64,000 nucleotides of DNA, from the NCBI GenBank assembly GCA_900315675.1, contig OMZY01000012.1, forward strand, positions 25,680 to 89,679, read 5' to 3'. Made by a program: the position numbers and the translations under genes. The notes beneath the pieces were generated by a model. That model saw nothing but the letters and a program-made list of their open reading frames with translations. It was not told the origin of the DNA and searched no databases. Source of the DNA: an uncultured Eubacteriales bacterium (GTDB taxonomy: Bacteria > Bacillota > Clostridia > Christensenellales > Aristaeellaceae). This document shows positions 48,604 to 51,478 of the stretch, piece by piece. Positions within the stretch are counted from its first letter, which is position 1; each line of letters starts with the position of its first letter.

Positions 48604-48715
48604 TAATTCACAATTCATAATTCATAATTAAATATTTTTAACCGACGCGTTATTGCCGGAAAGCAGCATGATCCGGACCGAAATGGAGAAGTGTTTTGTT
48701 ATGAATTGTGAATTG
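48604..48715. repeat. Inverted-repeat intergenic element, copy 3
   Basis: Left arm 48604-48630 (TAATTCACAATTCATAAT...), right arm 48699-48715 (TTATGAATTGTGAATTG), 68-bp interior with AATGGAGAAG. It lies between the MATE gene and the T-box promoter. Confidence 0.7.
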
Positions 48716-48763
48716 AAAAACAATACATTTCATTGTTTTTGCACTGTATTTGTTACAAACCCC

Positions 48764-48792
48764 TTGACACCTTTTTTTCGGCGTGCTACACT
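48764..48792 (+). promoter_or_regulatory. Promoter of T-box leader
   Basis: TTGACA, 17 nt, TACACT; start near 48799, at the 5' end of the T-box RNA. Confidence 0.75.
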
Positions 48793-48798
48793 TCAGGC

Positions 48799-49066
48799 AA
48801 TTTCATACAAGGCTGTGACGAAGACGGAACAGCAGGAAGCCCCACAGAGAGCCGGGTATGGTGTGAACCGGCGGGCCGAAGCTTCATCCCATCGCTTCCG
48901 AGCCGGAGATCCGAAAGGTTGATCCCAGTAGGCGTCTCCCGTGACTGCTGCGTAAAGGCATAGGACATGATAGTGTCTGAAGTGGTGTGCAAAGGCGCAC
49001 AATTTGAGTGGTACCGCGAGCCAACATGGCCCGTCTCAAAAAATGAGACGGGCCATTTATTTATTC
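48799..49066 (+). ncRNA. T-box riboswitch (tRNA-sensing leader)
   Basis: The apical Stem I motifs are intact: AGAGAGCCGGG with GGTGTGAACCGG, forming GCCGG/CCGGC. The 5' strand has TGACGAAGACGGAACAGCA. The antiterminator carries the T-box GAGTGGTACCGCG, whose bulge TGGT would pair with the NCCA end of a tRNA with discriminator A. The competing terminator is a perfect 13-bp stem (49026-49038/49044-49056, GGCCCGTCTC core) followed by TTATTTATT. Uncharged tRNA binding should prevent termination. The specifier could not be fixed by eye; UUC (Phe) at 48883-48885 is the best candidate. Confidence 0.93.
49026..49065 (+). terminator. T-box terminator
   Basis: 13-bp stem ATGGCCCGTCTCA/TGAGACGGGCCAT, loop AAAAA, then TTATTTATT. 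It is mutually exclusive with the T-box antiterminator. Confidence 0.88.
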
Positions 49067-49148
49067 CCGGCCATCTGATTCAGGCATTCTGCTGTATGAA
49101 AGACCCGGATTTACACTTTATGGATTGTAAAGAGAGGAGCGTTTCCAG

Positions 49149-51419
49149 ATGACAACCCGGACTGATCTGAGCCAATTGAGCGCGGTTGCTTCCCGTATCC
49201 GTGAAATGCGGGAGATCATGGGCTGGACCCCTGAGGAAATGGCGGAAAAGACCGAGGTAACCCTTGCGGAATACCTCGATTATGAAGCCGGCCAGACCGA
49301 CATGCCCTTTACGTTTATCTACAAATCCGCCCAGGCTTTCAACATGGAGCTGACGGAGCTGCTGGAAGGCCATAACGCTTTCCTGTCCACCTACACGGTT
49401 ACCCGCCGGGGCAAGGGCGAGACGACCGCGAAGGAAGAGGGAATCGCCATTTCCAACCTGGCGCCGAAATTCCGGGATAAGGTGGCGGAGCCTTACTGGG
49501 TCCGTTATGAGTATTCCGAAAAGCAGCAGAATGAGCCGATCCATACGACGACTCATAAGGGCCAGGAGTTTGACCTGGTACTTTCCGGCAGCCTGAAGGT
49601 CCAGGTCGGCGACCATACCGAAATCCTGGAGGAAGGCGACAGCATCTATTACAACTCCTCCCTGCCGCACGGCATGATCGCCGTGAACGGAAAGGACTGC
49701 GTGTTCCTGGCCATGATCCTGCCCGTTGAGGGACAGCAGGCGGGAGCTGATTTCGCGGCTGTGCCGAAGGCGGCGAAGTATGAGGGCCACCTGGTTGCCG
49801 AGAAGTTTATCGACGCGAAGGAAGACGAGCAGGGAAGGCTTACCTCCATCAGTTTTCCGAACCAGGAAACCTTCAACTTTGGCTTTGATATCGTGGACGA
49901 GATTGCCCGCAAGTATCCGGACAAGCTGGCTATGCTCTATGTGGACAAGCATCACGAAGAACGCCGCTTCACTTTCAAGGACGTCAAGGACGCCTCCAAC
50001 CAGTGCGCCAACTATTTCACTTCCCTGGGCATCAAGCGGGGCGACCGGGTCATGCTGGTACTCAAGCGGCACTATCAGTTCTGGTTCTCCATGGTGGCCC
50101 TGCACAAGCTGGGAGCCATCGCCATCCCCGCAACCAACCAGCTCAAGGAACATGATTTTGAATACCGCTTCAACGCTGCCGGCGTGAAGGCCCTGATCTG
50201 CACAGCGGACGGGGATACCGCCGAGATCGCTGAGCGTGCCGCCGCGAAATGTCCCAGCGTGGAAACCCTCATCATGGTCAACGGTTCCCGCGAAGGCTGG
50301 CATAATATGAATGAGGAATATCCGCTCTTCACCCGCCGCTACCGCCGTCCGGAGGGCGCCTCCTGCGGCAGCGAACCGGCCTTGATGTTCTTTACCTCCG
50401 GCACCACCGGCAATCCGAAAATGGCGCAGCACCGCCACACCTACGCCCTGGGCCACTATGTTACCGCCAAGTACTGGCACTGCTGTGAGCGGGACGGCCT
50501 CCATTTCACCATCTCCGACACCGGCTGGGGCAAATCCCTCTGGGGCAAGCTCTACGGTCAGTGGCTGTGCGAGGGTGCTGTCTTCGTCTATGACTTTGAC
50601 AAGTTCGACGCGGCGGATATCCTGCCCATGTTCAAGAAGTACAATATCACCACCTTCTGCGCGCCGCCCACCATGCTGCGGATGTTCATCAAGGTGGACC
50701 TGGACAATTATGACCTGTCCTCCATCCATCATATGACCACCGCCGGCGAAGCCCTGAATCCCGAGGTGTACCGCCAGTTTGAGAAGGCCACCGGCCTGCA
50801 GATCATGGAAGGCTTCGGCCAGACGGAAACGACCCTGACCATCGGCAACCTGGCCGGCACCGTGCCGAAGATCGGTTCCATGGGCAAGGCCAATCCCCAG
50901 TACGACGTGGATATTGTGGATCCGGACGGCAACCCCGTCGCCAACGGCGAAGTGGGCGAGATCGTTATCCATACGGACAAGCAGATTCCCTGCGGCCTCT
51001 ATCGGGAGTATTACCTGGATGAGGAAAGGACGAAGGAAGCCTGGCACGACGGCATGTATCATACCGGCGACACCGCCTGGCGGGATGAGGACGGCTACTT
51101 CTGGTATGTATCCCGGATCGATGACGTGATCAAGTCCTCCGGCTACCGGATCGGACCGTTTGAGATTGAATCGGTCATCATGGAACTGCCCTATGTGCTG
51201 GAATGCGGCGTTTCCGCCGAACCGGACGAAATCCGCGGCCAGATCGTCAAGGCGTCCATCGTGCTTACCAAGGGCACAGAGGGCACCGAGGAACTCAAGA
51301 AGGAAATCCAGCAGTACGTGAAGGACCATACCGCGCCCTACAAGTATCCCCGCAAGATTGTCTTCCGGGACGAACTGCCCAAGACCATCTCCGGCAAAAT
51401 CCAGCGCAACCTGCTGTAA
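49149..51419 (+). CDS. XRE-cupin-AMP-forming acyl-CoA synthetase fusion
   Basis: 756 aa, three parts. Residues about 15-70: a Cro/C1-type helix-turn-helix (RIREMREIMGWTPEEMAEKTEV, TLAEYLDYEAGQTDMPFTFI). About 105-195: a cupin barrel (EFDLVLSGSLKVQVGDHTEILEEGDSIYYNSSLPHG, given by its ends). About 215-756: an ANL-superfamily acyl-CoA synthetase with the P-loop FFTSGTTGNPKMAQH (about 413), GFGQTETT, YHTGDTAW, RIDDVIKSSGYRIGPFEIE and the C-terminal catalytic Lys in PKTISGKIQ. It should activate a carboxylic acid to an acyl-CoA with ATP; the acid is unknown. GAGAGGAG precedes the ATG. Expression is controlled by the T-box upstream, which is unusual for such an enzyme. The HTH-cupin part may sense ligand or be regulatory. 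Confidence 0.9.
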   Translation: MTTRTDLSQLSAVASRIREMREIMGWTPEEMAEKTEVTLAEYLDYEAGQTDMPFTFIYKSAQAFNMELTELLEGHNAFLSTYTVTRRGKGETTAKEEGIAISNLAPKFRDKVAEPYWVRYEYSEKQQNEPIHTTTHKGQEFDLVLSGSLKVQVGDHTEILEEGDSIYYNSSLPHGMIAVNGKDCVFLAMILPVEGQQAGADFAAVPKAAKYEGHLVAEKFIDAKEDEQGRLTSISFPNQETFNFGFDIVDEIARKYPDKLAMLYVDKHHEERRFTFKDVKDASNQCANYFTSLGIKRGDRVMLVLKRHYQFWFSMVALHKLGAIAIPATNQLKEHDFEYRFNAAGVKALICTADGDTAEIAERAAAKCPSVETLIMVNGSREGWHNMNEEYPLFTRRYRRPEGASCGSEPALMFFTSGTTGNPKMAQHRHTYALGHYVTAKYWHCCERDGLHFTISDTGWGKSLWGKLYGQWLCEGAVFVYDFDKFDAADILPMFKKYNITTFCAPPTMLRMFIKVDLDNYDLSSIHHMTTAGEALNPEVYRQFEKATGLQIMEGFGQTETTLTIGNLAGTVPKIGSMGKANPQYDVDIVDPDGNPVANGEVGEIVIHTDKQIPCGLYREYYLDEERTKEAWHDGMYHTGDTAWRDEDGYFWYVSRIDDVIKSSGYRIGPFEIESVIMELPYVLECGVSAEPDEIRGQIVKASIVLTKGTEGTEELKKEIQQYVKDHTAPYKYPRKIVFRDELPKTISGKIQRNLL

Positions 51420-51440
51420 TTCCCGGAATATACGCAAACG

Positions 51441-51478
51441 AAAGGGACCGGTCCCGTTTGGGACCGGTCCCTTTTTTT
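51441..51478. terminator. Strong bidirectional terminator
   Basis: Perfect 15-bp stem AAAGGGACCGGTCCC/GGGACCGGTCCCTTT with loop GTTT and T tracts on both strands, between the converging ligase and EAL genes. Confidence 0.9.

Follow-up and report, generated by a model that had tools for sequence, protein, structure and literature searches.

The window analysed here, a stretch of 64,000 nucleotides from contig OMZY01000012.1, comes from an uncultured gut-type bacterium that appears to sense shortage of isoleucine (Ile) through an RNA switch reading empty tRNA: a T-box leader stands directly before a single gene in which an XRE-type helix-turn-helix (HTH), a cupin and an AMP-forming acyl-CoA ligase are fused. 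We consider it highly probable that the system is a shortage-controlled salvage of branched-chain acids, in which 2-methylbutyrate would be made into isoleucine through the window gene and isobutyrate into valine (Val) through a paralogue elsewhere in the same genome. The leader, the specifiers, the domains, their conservation, a putative pocket residue and, in relatives, the linkage to genes for a branched-chain 2-oxoacid:ferredoxin oxidoreductase (VOR) and a branched-chain aminotransferase (BCAT) can all be read from the DNA. The features of the locus are as follows.

48764-48792, forward strand: promoter, read off the sequence (TTGACA at 48764-48769, a 17-bp spacer, TACACT at 48787-48792)
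48806-49041, forward strand: T-box leader, covariance match to RF00230 (74.4 bits, E 2.3e-16, model positions 1-219 of 219)
48891-48893, forward strand: specifier ATC (AUC, Ile), read by eye from the model alignment, then a G and the helix CTTC pairing with GAAG
49007-49018, forward strand: T-box core AGTGGTACCGCG, from the model alignment and the sequence, with the bulge TGGT at 49009-49012 suiting a discriminator A
49026-49056, forward strand: intrinsic terminator of 13 bp, -24.3 kcal/mol by folding
49133-49139, forward strand: ribosome binding site AGAGGAG, read from the sequence
49149-51419, forward strand: XRE-HTH/cupin/AMP-forming acyl-CoA ligase fusion of 756 residues, from the open reading frame and Pfam domains
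49191-49370, forward strand: HTH_19, residues 15-74 (Pfam 33.6 bits, cut-off 30.2)
49536-49715, forward strand: Cupin_2, residues 130-189 (Pfam 45.9 bits, cut-off 27.2)
49896-50978, forward strand: AMP-binding, residues 250-610 (Pfam 230.6 bits, cut-off 29.9)
50529-50531, forward strand: codon of Gly461, the residue tracking the specifier (by alignment with Acs Val310; 132 of 132 labelled fusions)
51162-51398, forward strand: AMP-binding_C, residues 672-750 (Pfam 77.7 bits, cut-off 24.5)
51440-51475, forward strand: terminator hairpin and T-run 3' of the gene (51438-51476 folds at -32.6 kcal/mol)

As far as sequence can tell, the leader is confirmed as a real T-box with an AUC specifier. Its score was obtained in an E-value search of positions 48700-49200 and lies under the curated gathering cut-off of RF00230, which is set at 93 bits; for the same reason, a gathering-threshold Rfam scan of the whole window reported no T-box. 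The first-pass annotation had made its T-box conditional on the covariance threshold, which the leader literally fails to reach, and in our judgement the E-value and the many conserved related leaders outweigh this shortfall. The rest of the anatomy described there proved real, the promoter, the Stem I motifs (AGAGAG at 48846-48851 and GGTGTGAA at 48860-48867), the bulge and the 13-bp terminator all being located before one gene, and so did the combination of HTH, cupin and AMP-forming ligase within that gene, every domain scoring above its Pfam cut-off. The discriminator A that suits the bulge is presumably the A73 of tRNA-Ile, and the AUC specifier would suit the gene under control. The putative antiterminator, with arms at approximately 49003-49008 and 49035-49040, competes with the terminator, the segment 49003-49040 folding at -10.4 kcal/mol, and the fold of 48799-49064 beats 200 of 200 shuffles (z -2.93). 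Given the hairpin and T-run that come after the gene, the gene is probably monocistronic.

The predicted structure of the fusion protein (mean predicted local distance difference test, pLDDT, 77.2; predicted TM score, pTM, 0.65) shows five helices at the N-terminus, followed by the cupin strands and the ligase, in that order. Among solved structures, the ligase part is matched best by the Methanosarcina acetivorans enzyme MacsMa (3etc; 612.7 bits, the runner-up reaching 336.9), and it shares the MacsMa-type trait of a glycine, here Gly557, replacing the tryptophan that is Trp414 in Acs; by counting from the motif YHTGD at 431-435, Trp465 is the equivalent of the alternate tryptophan, Trp259, of MacsMa. 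Both Gly557 and Trp465 are invariant across 132 fusions. The best NCBIfam model is that of the Staphylococcus aureus methylbutyryl-CoA synthetase MbcS (NF047394), and since the 449.9 bits obtained fall short of the 850 required of an equivalog, we do not file the ligase as MbcS.

The genome of the window holds a second complete fusion (C20:68399-70666) behind a T-box of 82.6 bits (locus L007) with the specifier GUA, for valine, and fusions behind T-boxes recur in relatives. The order sample comprised 248 genomes, 125 of them with a match at E of at most 1e-60; at most four candidates were scored per genome, and upstream DNA was read for 110 loci (30 from the first order search and 80 further stretches). 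Among the matches listed there are at least 76 fusion reading frames in 53 genomes, 34 with an Ile and 18 with a Val specifier and 24 unlabelled. Ten of the unlabelled fusions are the second genes of tandem pairs, one (L076) is masked and one (L077) has an unread match of 39 bits; an Rfam scan of 14 of the 24 found no T-box, the others, except L077, having had a motif search only. The specifiers of L017 and L050 came from that same scan. The script's top specifier was overruled at 11 loci (L015, L021, L023, L032, L060, L063, L090, L106, L111, L114 and L119), and at 12 where it gave none (L017, L020, L050, L068, L069, L070, L072, L079, L082, L093, L098 and L120) the specifier was read by eye from the sequence or model alignment, the weakest T-box among these being that of L069, at 40.2 bits. 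A second set, the best 80 of 592 named loci read by a fixed-geometry script, gave 104 fusion reading frames in 79 loci; 83 could be read, 17 lack a core within 500 nt and 4 have a core and no reading. The script assigned 53 to Ile, 29 to Val and one to His; the last (L147p6580) is GUA by eye and was excluded from the 132 labelled fusions. Every accepted fusion specifier in the relatives is thus, on our reading of the leaders, Ile or Val. Other genomes have the unfused arrangement, with an XRE-cupin gene and a ligase gene as neighbours, and 12 unfused ligases stand behind an Ile T-box.

The specifier is tracked by one residue of the ligase. In a column comparison of residues 197-756 within the main clade, position 461 was the best and a complete separator, with glycine in 28 of 28 Ile and alanine in 18 of 18 Val fusions, and the rule extends to all labelled fusions of the order sample (Gly461 in 34/34 Ile, Ala461 in 18/18 Val; 52/52). 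The second set has 53 Ile fusions with Gly461, 29 Val fusions with Ala461 and none crossed, the row read as His carrying alanine; three of the 104 are at least 98% identical to members of the first set, and without these the counts are 51 and 29. With both sets pooled, and the near-copies and the His row omitted, the rule holds in 132 of 132. Across all 756 positions, only residue 461 and residue 96, before the cupin, split the two groups without overlap. Residue 461 aligns with Val310 of Escherichia coli Acs; in Salmonella Acs, the equivalent residue is reported as a determinant of specificity that sits no more than 4 A from the acetyl group (PMC8511477, in the part available). Tandem fusions approximately 30 nt apart, with a single Ile T-box before the pair, were seen at L021, L023, L025, L027, L028 and L030, the second genes being L043, L044, L046-L048 and L051; all ten second-in-operon fusions without a T-box of their own have Ala461, and the Ile leader of such a pair would also govern a Val-type enzyme. 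Upstream of one Ile T-box fusion there is, in addition, a sub-threshold match to the Gut-1 RNA (L017:957-1028, reverse strand; 41.4 bits, cut-off 50, E 1e-4).

How many times this association arose matters for its weight. A quick ligase tree had suggested several independent Val origins, an idea we dropped as full-length trees require only two specifier changes, each accompanied by a change of residue 461. A single Val clade is rejected (approximately unbiased test, p 0.0058) because one copy, L063 of genome G243, long-branched in that tree, nests inside the Ile clade; its T-box, of 90.3 bits, has the specifier GUA. At the 21 columns marking the older Ile/Val split, this copy is Val-like at 461 and 747, the latter presumably in the motif near the C-terminus that holds the catalytic lysine, Ile-like at 18 and different from both at one. 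With two events, the co-switching of specifier and residue is suggestive. We see about an even chance that the fuller picture holds, in which AUC with Gly461 (2-methylbutyrate, Ile) and GUN with Ala461 (isobutyrate, Val) change together, L063 having made the same switch, the leader serves as a label of the substrate, and the XRE-cupin part may bring in a further, ligand-dependent layer through which the enzyme would regulate itself.

Genes that the salvage would need were found in the window's genome and, in some relatives, close to the fusions. The window's genome has VorB (567.5 bits, cut-off 399), adjoined by VorA- and VorC-like genes under their NCBIfam cut-offs, and one aminotransferase class IV gene. 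For the comparison among genomes, 54 were counted as having a fusion, including G100, whose fusion is truncated by a contig end and which was added by hand. In raw counts that ignore kinship, VorB occurs in 51 of these and in 91 of the 194 others, and in 119 of the 125 genomes with any ligase homologue as against 23 of the 123 without. It lies within 10 kb of the fusion in 18 of 54 genomes, downstream and on the same strand in 16 of them; one of the 18 linkages, in G194, relies on a partial fusion match (residues 173-756). The operon of G066 runs from two fusions through a weakly CbiA-like ATPase, a ferredoxin, VorB and VorA- and VorC-like genes to IlvE (479.2 bits, cut-off 307) and a LeuA-like gene. 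In G012, G040 and G009, an IlvE-kind reading frame follows the second fusion; that of G012, the only one of the three scored, is a BCAT at 479.6 bits. The P-loop ATPase that precedes the ferredoxin and VOR genes in these operons has 220-230 residues and is weakly CbiA-like (23.6 bits, cut-off 25.4); it lies at L219:5322-5990 (reverse strand), with similar reading frames at L215-L218, L220, L221 and L224-L228.

Under the salvage reading, a shortage of isoleucine would leave tRNA-Ile uncharged, and its binding to the leader would stabilise the antiterminator and let transcription reach the fusion gene. The ligase would then convert 2-methylbutyrate taken from the surroundings to 2-methylbutyryl-CoA, VOR would carboxylate this reductively to 3-methyl-2-oxovalerate, and BCAT would complete the synthesis of isoleucine. 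The second fusion, behind the Val T-box, would lead from isobutyrate to valine by the same route, and the 2-oxoacid of valine could also supply leucine (Leu) through LeuA. The response to tRNA, the substrates of the ligase and the direction of flux are what we infer here: 2-methylbutyrate and isobutyrate are the most likely acids because the specifier is Ile in the window and Val in the paralogue of its own genome, and an AMP-forming ligase induced by shortage of an amino acid would be expected to work in synthesis rather than breakdown. The first-pass annotation had already proposed an acid-salvaging ligase under tRNA control; the idea survives, narrowed to isoleucine here and valine in the paralogue by the specifiers, the pocket residue, the VOR and BCAT linkage, the likeness to MacsMa and the lack of IlvC and IlvD matches, whereas its candidates phenylacetate for phenylalanine and isovalerate for leucine are rejected for the window gene, the accepted fusion specifiers being all Ile or Val.

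Several observations weigh against the salvage reading. Besides the score of the leader, the predicted model is unreliable at residues 458-464 (pLDDT below 50); no T-box of their own could be read for 24 of the 76 fusions of the order sample and 21 of the 104 of the second set; the 12 unfused ligases behind Ile T-boxes have Gly461 in ten cases and two exceptions, one with alanine and one with methionine; and, with just two independent switches, a sign test cannot reach significance. In the window's genome, VOR lies on a different contig from the fusion, and no T-box core was seen there. Among the 54 fusion genomes, an IlvD-family match occurs in 11 and ketol-acid reductoisomerase (KARI, IlvC) in six (vs. 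70 of the 194 others), four of the 34 with an Ile-T-box fusion among them, with none in the 18 with a Val-T-box fusion or the 23 with two fusions. Those six genomes and the Ile T-box of the window leader would fit a ligase that activates propionate, for which anaerobes have a route to 2-oxobutyrate, with isoleucine then made by the classical sequence of acetohydroxyacid synthase, KARI and dihydroxy-acid dehydratase. However, searches of the window's genome, which is 95.66% complete, gave no match to KARI and none to IlvD, the twin with a Val T-box and the VOR and BCAT genes beside fusions would be left unexplained, and the homologues MacsMa and MbcS favour branched acids; we regard this explanation as very unlikely. 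That MbcS is the top NCBIfam model, and is reported to serve membrane lipid synthesis by activating both 2-methylbutyrate and isobutyrate (PMC10026030, in the part available), raises another thought, namely that fatty acids of the membrane are primed with branched acyl-CoA from the ligase and that Ile charging is only a proxy signal. The distance of the score from that required of MbcS, the VOR, BCAT and LeuA-like neighbours in relatives and the Ile/Val split of the specifiers, which suits amino acids, make it very unlikely.

The same low covariance score, together with the 17 second-set fusions without a core, could also be taken to mean that the T-box has decayed and does not respond to tRNA. 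However, the leader retains an intact specifier loop, bulge and terminator, the same type of leader with Ile or Val is conserved in diverged genomes, and lower-scoring T-boxes of the same genome precede fitting genes: an RF00230 search of that genome gave ten matches of 47-115 bits, the window leader among them, four above the cut-off and six below, and in others of the ten the specifier suits the next gene, UGG before trpE, ACC before thrS and CCG before proS (genes named by eye) and CUG before a leuA-like gene with model support below cut-off. Decay is the least probable of the explanations considered here. The HTH-cupin part poses a different question, since it could be the main controller, sensing the acid or its CoA ester and acting on the promoter of its own gene or on others, while the T-box would come second. 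Dual control, as put forward in the first-pass annotation, is possible: both domains exceed their Pfam cut-offs and recur in the paralogue, relatives have a stand-alone XRE-cupin gene ahead of that for the ligase, and 16 of the 21 columns marking the Ile/Val split fall in residues 1-141, though position 461 itself belongs to the ligase. Yet L063, the Val copy that arose by a separate switch, has the Val-type residue at not one of these 16, and among solved structures the N-terminal part has a weak best match (1y9q, E 0.0046), so we think the HTH-cupin rather unlikely to be the main controller. Acid-specific sensing by the cupin is itself mildly disfavoured, L063 keeping Ile-type residues at most of the diagnostic HTH-cupin columns in spite of its Val specifier.

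Some other loci of the genome may be recorded. Two T-boxes, at L002 and L003, were read as UAC (Tyr) and stand before symporter-like and aminotransferase-like genes (named by eye), and L002:2635-2735 (forward strand) is a thiamine pyrophosphate riboswitch of 72.5 bits, above cut-off. On contig C25, L127:5341-9931 has genes for a PorA-like subunit, a PaaK-like ligase and an aminotransferase in a row, possibly an aromatic-acid salvage operon judging by its gene content; none of the ten T-box matches lies on that contig, the L127 stretch itself having had no model scan. On contig C40, at L130:4871-8354, an AMP-forming ligase directly precedes the alpha subunit of indolepyruvate ferredoxin oxidoreductase (731 bits, cut-off 650.9).

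Compared with the Ile class of T-boxes (RF00230), the window leader has the same anatomy, specifier, bulge and terminator and differs in controlling an acyl-CoA ligase fusion. The genes that T-boxes usually control are those for tRNA synthetases, biosynthesis and transporters (PMC2494555, in the part available), and the accessible text of that survey lacks the term acyl-CoA. Our literature search, over sources accessible in part, found no paper linking a T-box to such a ligase, though T-box surveys and databases may list such leaders; in the portion available, the Geobacter genome paper has a T-box before leuA only and places a predicted regulatory site of iorAB-paaK under tryptophan, not terming it a T-box (PMC2700814). 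The specifier of a T-box, our results suggest, could annotate an orphan acyl-CoA ligase, and they predict that uncultured gut bacteria rely on the isobutyrate and 2-methylbutyrate of their neighbours.

Among enzymes, MacsMa resembles the window ligase over 515 residues and has a glycine at the 461 position; the matched chain is without the fused HTH-cupin, and we know of no T-box for it. It is reported to favour 2-methylbutyrate (PMC10455477, available in part). MbcS, likewise a user of 2-methylbutyrate and isobutyrate, supplies membrane lipids, whereas the window ligase is proposed to serve amino acids. The XRE-cupin regulators represented by PDB 1y9q have the same order of HTH and cupin, matching weakly over residues 5-187, and differ in that the window protein, a putative regulator, is fused to a ligase. 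The chemistry predicted here is that of the rumen anaerobes, in which the making of isoleucine from 2-methylbutyrate by reductive carboxylation has long been known; for Methanobrevibacter ruminantium, it is given as the probable isoleucine route, with work of 1969 cited (PMC2812497, in the part available). What this locus would add to that route are candidate genes for the ligase, a tRNA-based control, the split into Ile and Val paralogues and, in many Clostridia, a code for the substrate that is activated.

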